Of a stretch of DNA of 64,000 bases, positions 5,689 through 47,262 are shown piece by piece (position 1 is the first letter of the stretch; each line of letters begins with the position of its first letter). Source of the DNA: Gemmatimonadaceae bacterium. GTDB taxonomy: Bacteria > Gemmatimonadota > Gemmatimonadetes > Gemmatimonadales > Gemmatimonadaceae. The position numbers and the translations under genes are program-made. The notes under the pieces were generated by a model. The model saw only the letters and a list, made by a program, of their open reading frames with translations, was not told the DNA's origin and did not search any database. The stretch is taken from the NCBI GenBank assembly GCA_040882285.1, contig JBBEBQ010000011.1, positions 1 to 64,000 of the forward strand, given 5' to 3'.

Positions 5689-7001
5689 ACCGCTAATGAC
5701 ACCGGGCGCGCGGGAGTAGCGCGACCCGCTACTTTGGACACCTCTCGCGGCGGAGCGTTGACGAATAGCTGGTCGAACGCCGGGCTTTCGAGCAGGATCT
5801 CGCAAACGTAAGGATCGAACTGCTTGCCCTTGAGCCGCATGAACTCTGCTCGGACTTGCGCGGGTGACAGGGCAGCTCGATACGGCCTATCCGACATCAT
5901 GGCATCGGCGGTATCCGCGAACATTATGATTCGCGACCAGAGCGGGATTCGCTCCCCCGCGATGCCGTGGGGGTAGCCTGTGCCATCCCAATTTTCATGA
6001 TGGTGCAGCACCGGCAACACGCAATCTTGTAGATCTGTGAGCCGCTGAATGAGTTCTGCACCGAGGCCAGAATGGGTTTTCATAACTGCAAACTCATCTG
6101 CCGTAAGCTTGCCGGGCTTGCTCAAGATCGGACCGAAGACTTCGTGAATCTTCCCAACATCGTGTAGAAGAGCGGCGACATAAATCCGCTCAACCTCCTT
6201 TCTACCCAGCCCCAACATTTCGGCTATCACACGCGTGTTCGCCGCGACTCGCCTTGAATGTCCTGACGTATACGGATCCCGGGCTTCGATCGCGGCTACC
6301 ATCATGTCGAGTAGCTCGCGGTTCGTGCGCTGCAATTGCATGTTAGTCTTGTACAACTCTCGCACGCCGAACAGCGGGATCGCCAGCATACCCACGCCAG
6401 CAGGACCGAACTGAGTATAGAACCAAGCAAATACGAATACGAAAGGAAGCGCGAGTAAGTCGTAAAGAATTTCAGTCGGATTGTGCGCCGCAATAAGGGT
6501 CCAGAACGATGTACCCGTGCTGAGTGAAACTGCCCCGTATAGCGCTACCGTGTTAACGATGAGGAATACGGGGAGTGCTACGGCCACAGCGAGGACCGAC
6601 GCAGACGCATCGGTCAGGAGGGAGACCCCACCGAGAGCTTGGTAGACCAACACTGAAATCGCCGCCGAAAGGATCGACTGCGAAATGTTAAAAATGGCCT
6701 TAATGGGGCTCCGTCGAACGAAAAGCTCGCACAAGGCCATTCCCGCACCGATCGCGGCCAATGTCGCCCAATTCGGGCTGAGAACGATCGCAGCAAGAAG
6801 CGGAAGAAACGCTATCGAGCCGACGGCGCCTTTTGCTGGTTTGCGATATCCAACCAGCTGAAAGACTACGCCTAGCACCGCAAAACTTATCGCTGCTTGG
6901 ATCGTGTCCGGCCTGGCAACCGGACCCAGCTGATACACAAGCGCAGCGAACATCGCGCCCAACGCGGCGACGGCGGATACGTAAACGTTGATACGCTTCA
7001 T
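5685..7001 (-). CDS. membrane-anchored HD-GYP domain protein (putative cyclic-di-GMP phosphodiesterase)
   Basis: A 438-residue protein. Residues 1-215 contain about seven hydrophobic segments forming a membrane sensor region that I do not recognise. A short linker leads to an HD-GYP domain (about 232-405) with HD at 280-281 in LLHDVGK, the HHHENWDGTGYP block near 333-344 and the downstream FADTADAM helix. Proteins with these residues hydrolyse c-di-GMP, and all motif positions visible are intact. It shares the lower GC content of the 3' half of the convergent regulator gene. The roughly 295 bases upstream of its start contain no gene that I can support. Confidence 0.9.
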   Translation of the reverse strand: MKRINVYVSAVAALGAMFAALVYQLGPVARPDTIQAAISFAVLGVVFQLVGYRKPAKGAVGSIAFLPLLAAIVLSPNWATLAAIGAGMALCELFVRRSPIKAIFNISQSILSAAISVLVYQALGGVSLLTDASASVLAVAVALPVFLIVNTVALYGAVSLSTGTSFWTLIAAHNPTEILYDLLALPFVFVFAWFYTQFGPAGVGMLAIPLFGVRELYKTNMQLQRTNRELLDMMVAAIEARDPYTSGHSRRVAANTRVIAEMLGLGRKEVERIYVAALLHDVGKIHEVFGPILSKPGKLTADEFAVMKTHSGLGAELIQRLTDLQDCVLPVLHHHENWDGTGYPHGIAGERIPLWSRIIMFADTADAMMSDRPYRAALSPAQVRAEFMRLKGKQFDPYVCEILLESPAFDQLFVNAPPREVSKVAGRATPARPVSLAV

Positions 7002-9692: not shown

Positions 9693-9750
9693 CGTCGCGC
9701 GCAGGCTGCGGGTCGGTGTGTCGCCAAGTGAGCCCTACGCGAGCAAACCC

Positions 9751-9843
9751 GGGAAACGTGTCGGGATGTCCTCCAGTGGTCGCTACGCGAGCAAACTACG
9801 CTCGCTAAGACGCGACCTTGGAGGACATCCCGACACGTTTCCC
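9751..9843. repeat. long nested palindrome (element A) with shared core
   Basis: Two perfect 25-bp arms (9751-9775 and 9819-9843) enclose a second inverted repeat (GGTCGC/GCGACC) and an inner GCGAGC/GCTCGC hairpin, so nearly the whole 93 bases can fold. The innermost 31 bases (9781-9811), read on the minus strand, almost match the core of the palindrome at 47171-47262, although the outer arms differ. A partial core copy (TACGCGAGCAAAC) also lies at 9736-9748. The element fills the gap between the MogA/MoaB gene and the sigma-54 activator gene. Confidence 0.9.
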
Positions 9844-13271: not shown

Positions 13272-14185
13272 ATCAGCTGCTCTCCTCCCATCAGCACGGC
13301 CATGATCGCCTTCTGCGCGTGCAGCCGGTTCTCGGCTTCGTCCCAGACGCGCGACTGCGGCCCGTCTATTACCTCCGCCGCGACTTCCTCGCCGCGGTGC
13401 GCGGGGAGGCAATGCAGGAAAATCGCTTCCTTGTCGGCGCGCTGCATCAGAGCGGAATCGACCTTGTAGCCCGCGAACGCCTTCTCGCGCTCCGCCTGCT
13501 CCTCTTCCTGTCCCATGGACGCCCACACGTCGGTGTTCACGACGTGCGCGCCGCTGGCAGCCTCGGCGGGATCGCGCACCACGCGCGCGTGCTCGCCCGC
13601 GGCCGCGAGAATCGCCGGGTCCGGGTCATAGCCCTCCGGGCACGCAAGCACGAGCGCGAAGCCGAGCACGCCCGCGGCCTCGATCCACGAGTTGGCCATG
13701 TTGTTGCCGTCGCCGATCCACGCGACCTTCTTCCCCGCGATGTCGCCGAAGTGCTGCCGCACCGTGAGAATGTCCGCCAGGATCTGGCACGGATGCGACA
13801 GGTCGGTGAGGCCGTTGATCACCGGCACGTCGGCGAACTTCGCCAGCTCCTCGACCTCCGCGTGCGCGAACGTGCGGATCATTATCCCGTCCACATAGCG
13901 CGACAGCACGCGCGCGGTGTCCGCGATCGGCTCGCCTCTGCCGAGCTGTACGTCGCGCGGCGAGAGAAAGAGCCCGTGCCCGCCGAGCTGCCAGGTGCCG
14001 ACCTCGAACGACACGCGCGTGCGCGTGGAGGCCTTCATGAAGATCATAGCGAGCGACTTTCCGCTCAGCGGCTTCTCGCGGTAGTGGCCCGCGCGCATCC
14101 GGTCGGCGAGCGCGAACAGCTGCGCCAGCTCGGCGGCGGAGAAGTCGGTAATGGCGAGGAAGTCGCGGTGGATGCGCTCGGTCAC
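13268..14185 (-). CDS. argF: ornithine carbamoyltransferase
   Basis: A 305-residue enzyme that makes citrulline from ornithine and carbamoyl phosphate in arginine synthesis. The carbamoyl-phosphate loop STRTR is at 53-57, HPCQ (SHPCQILADILT) near 130, and the ornithine-site HCLPAHRGEEV near 265. It overlaps hslU by four bases upstream and bcp by four bases downstream, so hslV-hslU-argF-bcp looks like one transcript. No other arginine gene is in the window, and this placement next to hslVU is uncommon. Confidence 0.95.
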   Translation of the reverse strand: MTERIHRDFLAITDFSAAELAQLFALADRMRAGHYREKPLSGKSLAMIFMKASTRTRVSFEVGTWQLGGHGLFLSPRDVQLGRGEPIADTARVLSRYVDGIMIRTFAHAEVEELAKFADVPVINGLTDLSHPCQILADILTVRQHFGDIAGKKVAWIGDGNNMANSWIEAAGVLGFALVLACPEGYDPDPAILAAAGEHARVVRDPAEAASGAHVVNTDVWASMGQEEEQAEREKAFAGYKVDSALMQRADKEAIFLHCLPAHRGEEVAAEVIDGPQSRVWDEAENRLHAQKAIMAVLMGGEQLI

Positions 14186-15630
14186 AGGATGTATCTCCGC
14201 AAGTCTTCGTCCTCGACGATTGTCTTCAGCCGCTCGCGCACCGCGGCGGCGTCGATCTTCACCGGCGCGTCGCCGCGGTCAGGCAGCTCGTACAGCACGT
14301 CCTCGAGCAACGTCGTCATGATCGTGTGCAGCCGCCGCGCGCCGATGTTCTCCATCCGCTCGTTCACGTGCGCCGCGGTGCGCGCGACTTCCGCGATCCC
14401 GTCCTCGGTGAACTCGAGCGAGGCGCCGTCGGCGGCGATCAGCGCCGCGTACTGCTTGGTGAGCGCGTTCTCGGGCTCGGTCATGATGCGCACGAAATCC
14501 GCTTCGGTGAGCGGCTTGAGCTCGACGCGGATCGGGAACCGGCCCTGCAGCTCCGGAATCAGATCGCTCGGCTTCGACACGTGGAACGCGCCGGCCGCGA
14601 CGAACAGCACGTGGTCGGTCTTCACCATGCCGTAGCGCGTCTGCACGTTGGAGCCCTCCACGATCGGAAGGAGATCGCGCTGCACGCCCTCGCGGGAGAC
14701 GTCGGGGCCGCCCTGCGCGCCGCGCTGCCCGGCGATCTTGTCGATCTCGTCGAGGAAGATGATCCCCATGGACTCGACGCGCTCGAGCGCGTCGGCGGTG
14801 AGATCGTCGCTGTCGATCAGCTTCTCCAGCTCCTGCTCCAGCAGAATCCGCCGCGCCTCGGACACCTTCACCGTGCGGTTCTTCTTCTTCTTGGGGAGCA
14901 TGTCCTGCAACATCTCGGAGAAGTTGCCCATCCCCTCCGGCGCGCCCTGCGGCACCATCACGTCGAACATCACCGGCGACTGCTGCGTGACTTCGACGGT
15001 CACCTCGCGGTCCTCCATCTTTCCCTCGCGCAGCAGGTTGCGGAGCTTCTCGCGCGTGCGCGCGTGCCGCTCCTGCGACGGGTCCAGCTCCTGCGCGGCC
15101 TCGCCCTGGGTCGACACCAGAAATACGTGCGGCCCGTTCTCGGCCTTCTGCTCGGCGGCGGTCTTGGAGATCGAAGGCGGGGGCGGAAGCAGCAGATCGA
15201 GGATCCGCTCCTCCGCCCGCTCCTGCGCCAGGTCCGCGACTTCCTCCTCACGCTCGGCGCGGACCATCGCGATCGCGCTCTCGACGAGATCGCGCACCAT
15301 GGACTCGACGTCGCGGCCGACGTAACCGACCTCGGTGAACTTGGAGGCCTCTACCTTTATGAAAGGCGCGCCCGCGAGCTTGGCCAGCCGCCGCGCGATC
15401 TCGGTCTTGCCCACGCCCGTGGGTCCGACGAGGATGATGTTGTTGGGCGAGATCTCCTCGCGGATCGCGTCGGGCGCGCGCTGCCGGCGCCAGCGATTGC
15501 GCAGCGCGATCGCCACGGACTTCTTGGCTTCGTCCTGCCCCACGATGTACCGGTCGAGTTCGGCGACGATCAGCTTGGGCGTCAGATCGGCCAGGCGCGC
15601 GAGCGCCTGAAGCGTGCGGGGAGACGCCAT
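14182..15630 (-). CDS. hslU: HslU, ATPase subunit of the HslVU protease
   Basis: A 482-residue AAA+ unfoldase that forms hexameric caps on HslV. Walker A is GPTGVGKT at 69-76. The pore motif GYVGRD follows ASKFTEV, Walker B is IIFLDEIDKI, and the C-terminal tail ends in RRYIL, which docks into HslV pockets. The intermediate I-domain is acidic and lysine-rich with a KKKKNRTVKV run. The start MASPRT overlaps the last base of the hslV stop (TGATG). Confidence 0.97.
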   Translation of the reverse strand: MASPRTLQALARLADLTPKLIVAELDRYIVGQDEAKKSVAIALRNRWRRQRAPDAIREEISPNNIILVGPTGVGKTEIARRLAKLAGAPFIKVEASKFTEVGYVGRDVESMVRDLVESAIAMVRAEREEEVADLAQERAEERILDLLLPPPPSISKTAAEQKAENGPHVFLVSTQGEAAQELDPSQERHARTREKLRNLLREGKMEDREVTVEVTQQSPVMFDVMVPQGAPEGMGNFSEMLQDMLPKKKKNRTVKVSEARRILLEQELEKLIDSDDLTADALERVESMGIIFLDEIDKIAGQRGAQGGPDVSREGVQRDLLPIVEGSNVQTRYGMVKTDHVLFVAAGAFHVSKPSDLIPELQGRFPIRVELKPLTEADFVRIMTEPENALTKQYAALIAADGASLEFTEDGIAEVARTAAHVNERMENIGARRLHTIMTTLLEDVLYELPDRGDAPVKIDAAAVRERLKTIVEDEDLRRYIL

Positions 15631-23449: not shown

Positions 23450-24637
23450 TCACTTCCCCCGCTCGTTGATCCGCGCGATGTAAGAATCGTAGTTCCGCCG
23501 CGTCTCGCCGAGCGAATCCCCCCCGAACTTCTCCAGAAACGCCTGCGCGATCACGAATGCAACCATCGCCTCCGCTATCACCCCCATAGCCGGCACGGCC
23601 GTCACGTCGCTTCGCTCCGCGACGGCGGCCGCCGCCTCTCCTGTCTCGGTATCGATGGTCGCGAGCGGCTTCATCAGCGTGCTGATCGGCTTCATCGCGA
23701 CGCGAAGCACGAGCGGCTCGCCCGTCGTCATCCCGCCCTCCAGCCCGCCCGCGCGGTTGCTGCGGCGGTGCACTCCGCCGGCGCGAGTCGCCTGCGACTC
23801 CGCGTCGATCTCGTCGTGCACGCGCGAGCCCGGCATTCGCGCCGCCTCGAACCCCAATCCCAGCTCCACACCTTTCACCGCCGGGATCGACATGATCGCG
23901 GCCGCGAGGCGGCCGTCGAGCTTGCGGTCCCACGACACGTACGATCCGAGCCCTACCGGCAGGCCGGTGCACACGACTTCGCAGATCCCGCCGAGCGTGT
24001 CACCGTCGCGCTTGGCTTCGTCGATCCGCGCGATCATCCGCTGCTCCGCGTCCTTGTCGAGCGTGCGGAGCGGAGAGTCGCCGACCGCGGCGTTGACGTC
24101 TTCGGGCAGCGCGTCCGGCGGCGCGGCGTCGATGCCGCCGAGGTGCACGACGTGGCTGCCCACCCTGACGGAGAACTCGGAGAGGAAGCGGCGGCAAACC
24201 GCGGCGGCCGCGACGCGAGCGGTGGTCTCGCGGGCCGACGCCCGCTCGAGCACGTCGCGCGCGTCGGCGCGGTCGTACTTGAGCATGCCGGAAAGGTCGG
24301 CGTGTCCGGGGCGCGGGCGCGTGACAGCGCGCTTGCGCTTGTCGGGGTCGGCCCCGCTCCGCGCCGGATCCATTATCTCCGACCAGTTCTTCCAGTCGCG
24401 GTTCCGGATGAGCAGCGCGATGGGCGATCCGATCGTCTCCCCCGCGCGCACACCGGCCAGCAGCTCGACGCTGTCGGATTCGATCTGCATCCGCCGGCCG
24501 CGGCCGTAGCCGTGCTGGCGGCGCGCGAGCTCGGCGTCGATGTCGCCGGCTGAGAGCGGCACGCCCGCGACCATGCCCTCCAAGATGCATACGAGGGCCT
24601 GGCCGTGAGATTCCCCGGCCGTCGTGAATCGGAGCAT
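23450..24637 (-). CDS. aroC: chorismate synthase
   Basis: An enzyme of about 395 residues that converts EPSP to chorismate with reduced FMN, the last step of the shikimate pathway. The start MLRFTTAGESHG matches the invariant N-terminus; six upstream in-frame codons are not conserved. The GRGRRMQIESDSVE and RPRPGHAD blocks, the RSSARETTARVA-type motif (here RASARETTARVA) and RSNRAGGLEGGMTTGEPL are all present. The start codon lies about 11 bases beyond a long palindrome that separates it from the lipoprotein gene. No strong ribosome-binding site is visible. Confidence 0.96.
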   Translation of the reverse strand: MLRFTTAGESHGQALVCILEGMVAGVPLSAGDIDAELARRQHGYGRGRRMQIESDSVELLAGVRAGETIGSPIALLIRNRDWKNWSEIMDPARSGADPDKRKRAVTRPRPGHADLSGMLKYDRADARDVLERASARETTARVAAAAVCRRFLSEFSVRVGSHVVHLGGIDAAPPDALPEDVNAAVGDSPLRTLDKDAEQRMIARIDEAKRDGDTLGGICEVVCTGLPVGLGSYVSWDRKLDGRLAAAIMSIPAVKGVELGLGFEAARMPGSRVHDEIDAESQATRAGGVHRRSNRAGGLEGGMTTGEPLVLRVAMKPISTLMKPLATIDTETGEAAAAVAERSDVTAVPAMGVIAEAMVAFVIAQAFLEKFGGDSLGETRRNYDSYIARINERGK

Positions 24638-24653
24638 GGCAAAAGATACTGCC

Positions 24654-24781
24654 AACTACCACCTAGAACTGCCAAGCTACGCGCTACCAGCAAAAAACGC
24701 CGCCAGCTACGAGCAAACTCAAGCTCGTAGCTGGCGGCTTCTAGCTGGTGGCCCGCAGCTTGGCAGTTCTAGGTGGCAGTT
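24654..24781. repeat. long double palindrome (element C)
   Basis: Outer arms of 38 bases (24654-24691 and 24744-24781) are imperfect inverted repeats containing CCACCTAGAACTGCCAAGCT. Inside, a perfect 16-bp stem (24699-24714 with 24723-24738) closes an 8-base loop AAACTCAA. The GAGCAAACT at the loop edge is also present in the core of the palindrome at 9751-9843. It occupies most of the gap between the lipoprotein stop and the aroC start, in the middle of a same-strand gene run, so it could act as an attenuator. There is no T-run after the stem on the minus strand. Confidence 0.9.
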
Positions 24782-24789
24782 ATCACCAG

Positions 24790-27150
24790 CTATGGACAGC
24801 CGCTCACGAAGTTGCTCGGCAGCGTCACGATCACTACGCCCCGCACGGTCGCGCCCACCAACACTATCTCGCCGTTGGGACGCAGCGCCGACTTGATCGG
24901 TCCGATAATCGGGTCGCGAACGGGGACAACGTTCACGCGCGCGTAGCTGCGATTCTCGTAGATCTCGATCACCGGCTCCGTAGACGCCGCGAAGGAGTAG
25001 CAGCTCGACCGCGGAATGCTGGTGCCGTTGCCGCTGTTGTTCGGATGGAAGTCGAAGCCGGGGTTCCCGCCCGACGTCTGGAAGAGCCCCTGCAGGCGCA
25101 GTGTCGCGTCTATCAGGTAAGTGGAGTCTCCGCGGATAGCGGCGAGCTCGCCGTCGAAGTTGATGGCCGCGCCTTTGACCCGCGAGAACGTGTTGGCGAT
25201 GTAGTCCGTCACGTCCGCCGCGCGCGACACGCCGAGGTCGACCGCCTGGAGCGGATGGACCTCCATTCCCCTCGTCACGTCGTACATGAGGGCGCGGCTG
25301 CCGAGGGCGGGACCGCCCTCGCCTATCACCGCTCTGCGGAAGTTGCCGGAATTGCGGACGTAGGTCGTGTCCCTGAAGCCGAGCTGGTCGATCACGACCA
25401 CGATCGCCCTGTCAACCGACACGAGAACCTCGTCCGCGCCGAAGCCAGCCGACGCGTACCGCTCCACTTCCAGCGTATCGGCACGTGACGCGCTCTGGCC
25501 GACGGCCTGCTCGAAGAAGAAGTGCGACGTACGCGTTGTCAGGTTCTCCCAGCGGACGGACCCCTTGTTGGGGAACGGAACCGACTGCCCGCCCGTCGGG
25601 CTGGTGGAGTACACCAGGATGACGTCGCCGCACGGCGTTCCGGGCGTGGCGCTGCCGCGGCACGTGGCGGCGAGGAACTGCGGCCGGTCGCTGAAATCGT
25701 ATTTGGTACGCTGCCTGATCATGAGACCCGGCACCGTTGCCGACTCGGTGGACGTCACGCTGTAGGCGATGATGTTCGGGAGCGCATACGCCGAAACGTC
25801 GCGGCCGGACGGCGACAGCGGGCCTGTGGCATTGAGATCGACGTACGAGATCGACGTACCACCGGAATTGGCGACGAGGAGCGTGTCGCCCATCGTTCCG
25901 TTCCGGTCCCGCGGCCATGCCGCTACACCCCACGGGCGCGACCCGACGCTGATCGACGGCTTGAAGCTGGAGTCCGCGAACGCGAACACCTCGAGCCTGT
26001 TGCGCTCGATGTTCGTCAGATACAGCCTGTCCTTGACCGGGTGATACAGGGCGTCGGCAACCGCCCCGCCGGACGGTAGCGGGCGCGTCGCGCCGGCCAC
26101 GACCGTAACCGTGTCGGTGCGGATCGCGCCGCCCGCGAGCAAGGCGTACGAGCGCGTGCCGTTCGCGTTGGTCGCGAACGCGCGGACGAAGATCGTCTGC
26201 GGGAATGTCGTATACGGCAACCGCATGTTGAACGTGCGGAAGAGCGACGTGATCTGGCCGGTCGAGACGAGCGAGTCCGCTGCTTCGACTGCGCCGGTCG
26301 GCGAGCTCCTTACCTCATAGCCGAGCGTAGCGATCCCAGCCTGGTCACTGGCGCTGACGTGGATCGTGTCGGTCACCTCGACGCGCGGCGTGATGCCGAA
26401 CGTCACCACCGGCGTCGACGTGGTGGAAGCCAGCGTCTGAACCGTGAGGATGATCGATGGCCCGACCGAGCGCTGTCCCAGGGAATCGTACACGAACGGG
26501 GTGACGGTGAGCTGGCCCACCGGCGTTCCCTCCGGTATCAGGAGCGTATCGCTGATGGAAAGAGAGTCGCGCAGCGGCGTAGTGAACACGGTCGAATCGG
26601 CGACGGTCAGAACCCCGCTCGTGCTGAAGCCGAGCGAGCTGACGCGCTGTCCGCTCCTTCCCATGATCGCCAGCACCACCGACTTGCCCACCACCGCTAC
26701 GGTCCCGCTTAGCGGGCTGATGATTCGCGCGTCGGGCGGCACTACGTTGCCGACGGCCAGCCGGAGCGTATCGGTCGGAGACCGGTTACCCGAGCCGTCG
26801 GTCGCGAAGCCCACGACCGTCACCGCCGTGCCCAACGGCACGCTGCGCGGAACGCTCAGCGAGAACGGGATGGTCGTTTCCAGGACGGTCGAGGTGAACG
26901 TAGTGTCGAAGGTGAACGCTACGCCTCCGGACACGCTCACGTGAATCGTCTTGAGGCCGAGGTTGTCCCGCGCGTCCGCCGAGAAGGAGAGCACCGTGTC
27001 GGCGGAGGCGGTGGTACCCGCAAGGTCCAGCGCGGGCGGGTTTGCGTCGCCCGTGGTGCCTTCCGTCAGGGAGTCCCCGCAAGCCGCGATGCCGGTGAAA
27101 GCGGCGGCACATATGAGAGCGAGCGAGCGGCGCATTCGACTAGTGCCCAT
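24790..27150 (-). CDS. large lipoprotein with Ig-like repeats and beta-propeller-like region
   Basis: A 786-residue exported protein. The leader ends in a lipobox (GIAAC), so it is likely lipid-anchored. Residues about 30-330 contain three Ig-like/cadherin-like modules (repeated DTLRLAV, DTLLIPEGTPVG and DTIHVSASDQAG patterns). From about 345 the sequence becomes propeller-like, with YHPVKDRLYLTNIERNRLEVF recalling YVTN repeats. I do not recognise the whole protein. It starts three bases after the pilQ stop and is followed by aroC, so it is transcribed with the pilus genes and may be a pilus- or secretin-associated surface protein. Confidence 0.8.
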   Translation of the reverse strand: MGTSRMRRSLALICAAAFTGIAACGDSLTEGTTGDANPPALDLAGTTASADTVLSFSADARDNLGLKTIHVSVSGGVAFTFDTTFTSTVLETTIPFSLSVPRSVPLGTAVTVVGFATDGSGNRSPTDTLRLAVGNVVPPDARIISPLSGTVAVVGKSVVLAIMGRSGQRVSSLGFSTSGVLTVADSTVFTTPLRDSLSISDTLLIPEGTPVGQLTVTPFVYDSLGQRSVGPSIILTVQTLASTTSTPVVTFGITPRVEVTDTIHVSASDQAGIATLGYEVRSSPTGAVEAADSLVSTGQITSLFRTFNMRLPYTTFPQTIFVRAFATNANGTRSYALLAGGAIRTDTVTVVAGATRPLPSGGAVADALYHPVKDRLYLTNIERNRLEVFAFADSSFKPSISVGSRPWGVAAWPRDRNGTMGDTLLVANSGGTSISYVDLNATGPLSPSGRDVSAYALPNIIAYSVTSTESATVPGLMIRQRTKYDFSDRPQFLAATCRGSATPGTPCGDVILVYSTSPTGGQSVPFPNKGSVRWENLTTRTSHFFFEQAVGQSASRADTLEVERYASAGFGADEVLVSVDRAIVVVIDQLGFRDTTYVRNSGNFRRAVIGEGGPALGSRALMYDVTRGMEVHPLQAVDLGVSRAADVTDYIANTFSRVKGAAINFDGELAAIRGDSTYLIDATLRLQGLFQTSGGNPGFDFHPNNSGNGTSIPRSSCYSFAASTEPVIEIYENRSYARVNVVPVRDPIIGPIKSALRPNGEIVLVGATVRGVVIVTLPSNFVSGCP

Positions 27151-45835: not shown

Positions 45836-47170
45836 GTGGAGTCACTACAAGTCAGTGGCGGCGATGTAGCGCTGCGGCTGATCGCTGTCATACTGCTGGT
45901 TTTTGCCAACGCTTTTTTTGTCGCGGCCGAGTTCGCTCTGGTCGCTGCCAGGCGCAGCCGCATCGATCAGATGGCTGCCGGGGGCGACTCGGCGGCGAAG
46001 GTGGTGCAGAAGGCCCTGACCCACCTGGACCGGTACATCTCCGGGACCCAGCTCGGGATCACCATGGCCTCGCTCGGGCTCGGCTGGATCGGCGAGCCGG
46101 CGATGGCGCTGCTGTTCGCCTGGGTCCTCGGCTTCTTCGGGTACGTCGCATCGCCGGCCGCGCTGCACGGCACCGCGATGTTCTTCACCGCCTTCTTCAT
46201 CATCACCTTTCTGCACGTGGTGCTCGGGGAGCTGGCGCCGAAGTCCATCGCGCTCACGATGCCGGAGAAGGTGGCCAAGGTCGTCACCGCTCCGCTGGTG
46301 CTGTTCTCCCGGCTGATGATGCCGCTGATCTACGTGTTCAACGGGGCCGCCAACCTGGTCCTGAAGCTGTTCGGCGTCACGCCCGTGTCGGAGCTGCATT
46401 CGATCCACTCGCCGGAAGAGCTGCGGCTGCTGGTCATTCAGTCGCACGCGCACGGCGTGCTGGACGAATCCGACCGCGCGATGCTCGCGGGCGTGTTCGA
46501 CTTTCATAACAAGGCCGCGGTGGACGTGATGCGGCCGCGGACCGAGATCGTGGCGCTCGACATCACGGCTACCACCGAGGAGGTCCGGGAGACTATCCGC
46601 ACCGAGCGGTACTCGCGCTACCCGGTGTACCGCGAGTCGCTGGACGACGTGGTGGGAGTCTTCCTGGCCAAGGACCTCTGGCTGCATCCGCCCGGCGAGG
46701 AGTTCTCGCTGGAAGCGTCGCTGCGGGAAGCGTTGTACATCCCCGACAGCCGCCCGGCGGAGCGCGTGCTGGAGGACCTGCGCCGGACGCGGGCGCACAT
46801 GGCGGTCGTGCTCGACGAGTACGGCGGCACCGCCGGAATCGTCACGATGGAGGACCTGATCGAGGAGGTCATCGGCGACATCTCCGACGAGTACGACCTG
46901 GCCGCGCGCGACTCGTTCGAGGAGGGCGGCGTGCTCGAGCTGGCGGGCTCGTTGTCGCTCATCGACGTGCGCTCGGACCACAAGCTCGACATTCCCGAGG
47001 GCGAGTACTCCACGCTGGGCGGGTACGCGTTCGCGAAGCTCGGCCGCCTCCCGCGCGTCGGCGATCGCGTGGCTTTCCCGGAGGGAGAGCTGGAGATCGT
47101 GGCGATGGACGGCAGGCGCGTGGCGGGGTTGCGAGTGCACCGAGGGGGGCAGCTAGCAGCTAGCAGCTAG
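45836..47170 (+). CDS. CNNM/CorC-type transporter (DUF21, CBS pair, CorC_HlyC)
   Basis: A 444-residue hemolysin-C/CorC family membrane protein, usually linked to Mg2+ or Co2+ efflux. The DUF21 membrane domain (about 1-190) contains ANAFFVAAEFALVAARRSRI and VVLGELAPKSIAL. A CBS pair (about 205-335) includes VMRPRTEIVALD and MAVVLDEYGGTAGIVTMEDLIEE, and the C-terminus is a CorC_HlyC domain. The GTG start is chosen because AAGGAG lies five bases upstream; the frame is open farther 5' but not protein-like. The last six residues and the stop codon are encoded by a CAGCTAG heptamer repeat. Confidence 0.93.
   Translation: MESLQVSGGDVALRLIAVILLVFANAFFVAAEFALVAARRSRIDQMAAGGDSAAKVVQKALTHLDRYISGTQLGITMASLGLGWIGEPAMALLFAWVLGFFGYVASPAALHGTAMFFTAFFIITFLHVVLGELAPKSIALTMPEKVAKVVTAPLVLFSRLMMPLIYVFNGAANLVLKLFGVTPVSELHSIHSPEELRLLVIQSHAHGVLDESDRAMLAGVFDFHNKAAVDVMRPRTEIVALDITATTEEVRETIRTERYSRYPVYRESLDDVVGVFLAKDLWLHPPGEEFSLEASLREALYIPDSRPAERVLEDLRRTRAHMAVVLDEYGGTAGIVTMEDLIEEVIGDISDEYDLAARDSFEEGGVLELAGSLSLIDVRSDHKLDIPEGEYSTLGGYAFAKLGRLPRVGDRVAFPEGELEIVAMDGRRVAGLRVHRGGQLAASS
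47150..47170. repeat. CAGCTAG heptamer repeat overlapping a gene's 3' end
   Basis: Three perfect CAGCTAG units followed by CAGC. The third unit supplies the TAG stop of the CNNM/CorC-type gene. As with the array at 1-54, every unit contains CTAG, so all six frames are closed over 21 bases. It abuts the palindrome that follows. Confidence 0.9.
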
Positions 47171-47262
47171 CAGCGGGACCTGGTGTCTCACGCAGGCGCG
47201 TCTTAGCGAGCGCAGTTGCTCGCGTAGCGCCGAAGTGAGATACCGGGTTCCGCTGCCCGCTG
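47171..47262. repeat. long palindrome (element B) with shared core
   Basis: Imperfect 21-base arms (47171-47191 and 47235-47255; 18 of 21 pair) enclose a core at 47200-47229 with GTCTTAGCGAGCG and GCTCGCGTAGCG. The core differs from the minus-strand core at 9781-9811 by one substitution and one missing base, while the outer arms are unrelated in sequence. The element lies between the CNNM/CorC-type gene and the second pilus locus, where it could separate the two transcripts. Confidence 0.88.

Follow-up and report, generated by a model that had tools for sequence, protein, structure and literature searches.

In this study, we report that two palindromes, here called elements A and B, in a 64,000-nucleotide stretch of a Gemmatimonadaceae contig (the window) are members of a previously undescribed family of gene-boundary hairpins, present at about 70 copies per genome in one genus of soil bacteria of the Gemmatimonadaceae. 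With a probability of about 0.7, they are REP-like hairpin copies with a fixed core and arms required mainly to pair, in which selection acts on the folded core strand and a putative trans-acting factor serves as reader. The features located in the window are listed in Table 1.

Table 1. Features of elements A and B and related sites in the window
Feature	Position	Strand	Remarks
Element A, whole hairpin	9751-9843	minus (core strand)	perfect 25-bp arms; covariance-model match 9760-9833, 80.2 bits
Element A, 5' arm, locus-specific	9819-9843	minus	pairs with 9751-9775
Element A, 3' arm, locus-specific	9751-9775	minus	pairs with 9819-9843
Element A, core GTCTTAGCGAGCGTAGTTTGCTCGCGTAG (GTCTTA, GCGAGC, GTAGTTT, GCTCGC, GTAG in order)	9783-9811	minus	exact match of the genome-wide pattern
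Extra right half-core GTTTGCTCGCGTAGGGC	9732-9748	minus	just outside element A, same direction
Element-free site	14175-14197		orthologous sites in G001 (L196) and G002 (L249) each hold an element
Element B, whole hairpin	47172-47254	plus (core strand)	covariance-model match 47178-47249, 72.8 bits
Element B, 5' arm	47172-47191	plus	starts 2 nt past the stop codon of the upstream gene (gene end 47170)
Element B, core GTCTTAGCGAGCGCAGTTGCTCGCGTAG	47200-47227	plus	exact pattern match; loop one T shorter
Element B, 3' arm	47235-47254	plus	with G.U pairs; from RNA fold

The first-pass annotation had described palindromes on the minus (A) and plus (B) strands sharing a core with one substitution and one gap, and both the coordinates and the differences (one T/C substitution and one missing T) were reproduced. 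The arms of element A are complementary at 25/25 positions, and those of element B form 20 bp when G.U pairs are counted. RNA folding of the core strand gave z-scores of -9.6 for A and -7.1 for B; the fold energy of element A was -81.7 kcal/mol, and that of element B was -91.1 kcal/mol on the core strand vs -69.6 kcal/mol on the other strand. Element A lies beside genes for a sigma-54 activator and a molybdopterin-binding protein, and element B beside genes for a CNNM/CorC protein and a type II/IV secretion ATPase. A half-core similar to that outside element A was also seen 3' of the arm in its G001 ortholog (L072), and a short tandem run of AGCTAGC units is found at about 47150-47172, immediately 5' of element B.

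The genome containing the window (G000; 2.89 Mb, 27 contigs) was searched for the core, which was found at 10 places with the exact pattern and in 41 forward and reverse matches with up to 2 mismatches, the controls giving 0 in both cases. A covariance model of the element was then built, with 58 copies aligned without gaps, and it detected 77 copies in G000, 64 in G001, 82 in G002 and 72 in G003, these being all four genomes of the genus, three of which are fragmented MAGs. The concern raised in the annotation that the core might exist at these two places only, or be chimeric, is thus removed by 64-82 copies in each of four separately assembled genomes, and orthologous copies across the four assemblies rule out an assembly chimera. 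In nearly all copies examined, the same core is held within arms of about 35 bp that are complementary at each locus and unrelated among loci.

A scan of 298 genomes of the phylum matched nine, namely the four of the genus and others with weak single or few matches. The weak match in G090 (L170) is laid out like the element, though its tip is altered, and those at L167, L169 and L174 were chance-like and partly in coding-like sequence. One of the weakly matching genomes, G057, from another family of the order, carries a second multi-copy hairpin family with near-perfect, locus-specific complementary arms (L260-L269). Like the genus element, it has a conserved centre, with GCGCAGTTTGC, enclosed by long arms that are complementary and vary from site to site; unlike it, the centre is longer and different, and about 10 copies were found by the pattern used. 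Homology of the two is suggested, although not proved. No match to the element was found in the viral contigs searched. Rfam covariance models gave 0 matches in the window at the gathering score and only sub-threshold, chance-like matches at L215, L217 and L222, so that no known Rfam family fits, and the literature searched contained nothing relevant on Gemmatimonadota repeats or structured RNAs. The family extends the palindromic repeats without a known transposase by one more phylum and, it seems, by a second related family.

The element is an intergenic long-stem hairpin of about 110 nt whose internal loops and apical loop are conserved. Read along the core strand, the order is a foot (GATGCC-like ... 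GCGCACC-like, seen in a minority of copies), an outer stem of variable sequence with one preferred G.U position, an A/G-rich internal loop (e.g. GCA/GAA), a 5-6 bp inner stem, an asymmetric internal loop (5' GUCUUA, 3' GUA), a 6-bp apical stem and the apical loop GYAGUUU. Measured from the core, the stem has a median reach of 35.5 nt, and paired versions of the inner stem include GGCCGC/GCGGCC, GGCGGC/GCCGCC and GCCTCC/GGAGGC. Apical stem versions were GCGAGC/GCTCGC (57), GCGAGC/GCGAGC (44), GCGCGC/GCGCGC (40) and GCTCGC/GCGAGC (10); GCTCGC/GCTCGC was never seen among these copies. The 44 GCGAGC/GCGAGC self-pairings may form tandem G.A mismatches. Sheared tandem G.A pairs from this combination would be stable on the core strand only.

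Placement was analysed over about 1.05 Mb of stretches containing 195 matches, 192 of which were used, with genes called by a home-made gene finder. The copies avoid genes and divergent promoters: only 2 of the 184 placed copies were inside predicted ORFs at a coding density of 84%, and intergenic regions 120 nt or longer were occupied in 30/48 convergent, 84/209 tandem and 12/87 divergent cases, figures of which only the class-to-class contrast is meaningful as the stretches were chosen around elements. Close pairs were outward in 44/44 cases, the 5' sides of the cores facing each other, and some of these pairs have gaps of 34-49 nt between the 73-nt models. Single copies between tandem genes ran with the gene direction in 25 cases and against it in 24, with median model scores of 75.0 vs 71.3 bits. 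The neighbours sampled were ordinary or housekeeping genes, and a catabolic, pyrimidine-degradation-like operon carries outward pairs in several of its gaps. There was no T run 3' of the stem (mean T fraction 0.07-0.17 in 8-nt windows), which ruled out an intrinsic terminator.

The core is constrained in sequence and the arms mainly to pair, loci diverging by compensatory substitutions. In the covariation analysis (A1), both sides had changed in 20/25 pairs, with a score of 0.500 vs 0.158 for shuffled data (0/500 shuffles) and 0.085-0.197 for slid partners. Across 112 ortholog comparisons, 373 double changes kept Watson-Crick pairs vs about 27 expected if the sides were independent. The 318 one-sided arm changes yielded, on the core strand, G.T in 148 cases vs A.C in 49. 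These comparisons share branches, and the count was redone on two phylogenetically separate paths, giving 44 double changes vs 2.5 expected and a G.T:A.C ratio of 20:3 (P=0.0002) for G000-G001, and 78 vs 6.8 expected with a ratio of 24:9 (P=0.007) for G002-G003; for G000-G003 alone, the ratio of 23:13 was not significant (P=0.066). Differences in the flanks (C/T 214, A/G 244) were without a mutational bias matching the G.T excess. Strand-symmetric copying would give equal G.T and A.C, and the G.T excess therefore indicates selection on the folded core strand. Selection sees this strand folded on itself whichever way the neighbouring genes run, the ratio being 50:16 in sense and 59:21 in antisense context; in convergent context it was not large (11:8). 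Isolated mismatches at arm positions 14-16 were G-T in 61/73 cases.

As the annotation had proposed, the arms are self-complementary within each element and differ between sites, the outer-arm identity of paralogs being close to chance (mean 0.54, sd 0.055), with one pair of 4,402 at about 0.80. Most copies occupy orthologous sites in the same orientation, and the arms of orthologs match each other as well as, or better than, nearby flanks do (medians of identity; some elements mis-parsed), by which hypervariable arms were ruled out. Shape is separated from sequence unusually cleanly, at dozens of sites with a fixed tip and arms that mainly need to pair, a combination that points to a putative factor reading the folded shape at dozens of places in the genome.

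The core itself differs between species at column 3, which is C in 54/54 copies of G002, G in 33/34 copies of G001, and either of the two in G000 (49 C, 7 G) and G003 (28 C, 15 G). In the closest pair, G000 and G001, 17/20 orthologous cores differ at this column, and most other core columns hardly change. C at column 3 requires T at column 4 (131:1), while G accepts any base (22 T, 33 other; Fisher 7e-21). We infer that almost all cores of G001 moved from GTCT to GTGN as the requirement of one trans-acting factor changed; such a genome-wide switch of dialect implies a trans-acting reader. Whole-core gene conversion is an unlikely cause because column 4 differs from locus to locus, and parallel selection by a common putative reader would explain the switch better. 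The odds are even that a putative factor reads the folded tip of 60-80 hairpins per genome and that a shift of its specificity in one species retuned nearly all sites while the arms kept drifting. If this were true, the genus would offer a natural experiment in the coevolution of a hairpin reader with its genome-wide sites. Through the GTCT to GTGN switch, the joint change of a trans-acting reader and scores of dispersed sites can be studied.

Where absences could be polarised, they were mostly losses in one lineage, for example with the element present in three genomes and the site empty in one. Aligned empty sites were whole-element deletions or kept short basal remnants of both arms; none held one intact arm in the flank, and no target-site duplication was apparent in them. 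Two core-less sites, L205 and L225 (near 6924-6994), retain a small basal palindrome. One element of G002 (L235:2540) has no counterpart in G000, G001 or G003, which either a gain or an ancestral loss could explain. We saw no recent transposition, and a single paralog pair has arms about 80% identical.

Among known systems, the closest are REPs and REPINs with their RAYTs, whose GTAG super-family consists of dispersed intergenic hairpins of 20-40 bp (PMC3733652, PMC3116915). The present family resembles them in its dispersed intergenic hairpins, convergent and tandem borders, inverted doublets, compensatory changes and preference for a single-strand form (PMC3733652, PMC3116915). It differs in its length (about 110 nt vs 20-40 bp), in its conserved tip with long arms of free sequence, and in its GTAG, which lies 3' of the apical stem with the last G paired in the inner stem, so that there is no unpaired end tag. 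The intergenic, convergent or tandem location and the inverted doublets of REPs are thus found; absent are the terminal tag on a short palindrome and the RAYT: a search for Y1_Tnp (PF01797, RAYT-type) gave 0 matches in the element-bearing genomes G000-G003, with 14/41 searched genomes matching and positive controls detected. A RAYT was accordingly rejected as partner, and a reverse transcriptase was also rejected as inconsistent, only G003 of the four genomes having one. CGTC-tagged REPs have stems of 8-9 bp whose first two positions are A/T pairs, loops of 4-5 nt and a CCA-like tail, and no dedicated transposase (PMC3733652). The element shares with them this lack of a dedicated transposase and, in most copies, an invariant C and GTC 5' of the apical stem, so that the CGTC letters are there; the stem (GC), loop (7 nt) and tail differ, and 33/34 G001 copies have GTG and not GTC. 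The view that a conserved centre is odd for a REP or a MITE was a fair contrast. MITEs have conserved terminal inverted repeats and a target-site duplication; in the element the termini are the variable part, and no target duplication is apparent at aligned empty sites.

In integron attC sites, the folded shape of one strand is read and the stem sequence can vary; such sites lie between cassettes, in one direction, and have their conserved part at the foot. The element is similar in the proposed reading of one strand's fold and in its variable stem, and different in its conserved tip and in the outward pairs that its copies form around housekeeping genes. We interpret the family as a REP-like variant that would work as a REP does, as an intergenic hairpin read single-stranded and folded, and that would share REP-like mobility. 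A single trans-acting factor would recognise the folded tip, and there is perhaps one chance in two that the form recognised is single-stranded DNA, as a hairpin or cruciform in the manner of REP and attC hairpins, and that the element is now almost immobile and vertically inherited.

Copies opposed in direction to both neighbours are similarly constrained, which favours DNA as the form recognised, and the preferred wobble position favours RNA. An RNA element, whose core strand would be transcribed into a hairpin for a protein to bind or cut, serving mRNA stability, processing or the blocking of antisense read-through, is a serious but somewhat less probable explanation. It would account for the covariation, the G.T tolerance with its fixed position (61/73), and the enrichment both at 3' ends and in a catabolic operon. 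Against it, single copies between tandem genes run equally with and against them under similar constraint, so that half would need antisense transcription, the gaps of 34-49 nt in some outward pairs are too short, or nearly so, for a promoter, no U tract follows the hairpin, and Rfam gave no match.

That the mobile unit is the core of about 29 nt alone, inserted in the loops of target palindromes already present, agrees with the unrelated arms of paralogs, with the basal palindromes kept at L205 and L225, and with reports of REP families inside palindromes (PMC3733652). It is nevertheless improbable, as the arms have fixed features (median stem of 35.5, wobble position, A/G loop, minority GATG/GCACC-like foot), and at L205 the more distant G003 carries the element, which makes a deletion more economical. 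The annotation had suggested the copying of one flank into an inverted arm during insertion or repair, which would suit locus-specific and complementary arms. This model was abandoned as very improbable: orthologous arms of sister species are recognisably the same, being inherited and drifting by paired changes, the strand-asymmetric wobble (G.T far above A.C) is not predicted by arm-to-arm copying, and an intact single arm was absent from the flanks of aligned empty sites. The reading as REP-like hairpins with a fixed core and pairing arms is retained.

Some related structures were also observed. The window contains another long palindrome at 24637-24798, with 60-bp arms that are 77% complementary and the minus-strand centre GCTACGAGCTTGAGTTTGCTCGTAGC; it has AGTTTGCTCG in common with the element core and is single-copy in the genus. 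At L210:7768-7867, L217:7539-7638, L179:8722-8823 and similar loci, an extra inserted hairpin, e.g. GGGTGCCCGCTCGCGAAGCGAGTGGGCGGGATA, replaces the normal apical stem. A subgroup including L215:13168-13305 and L245:182-253 and their flanks has an CCCCCGAAGGGGCAGTT-like end after the 3' arm and an GGTGCCGTTGCTGG-like start, which suggests a second type of element foot.
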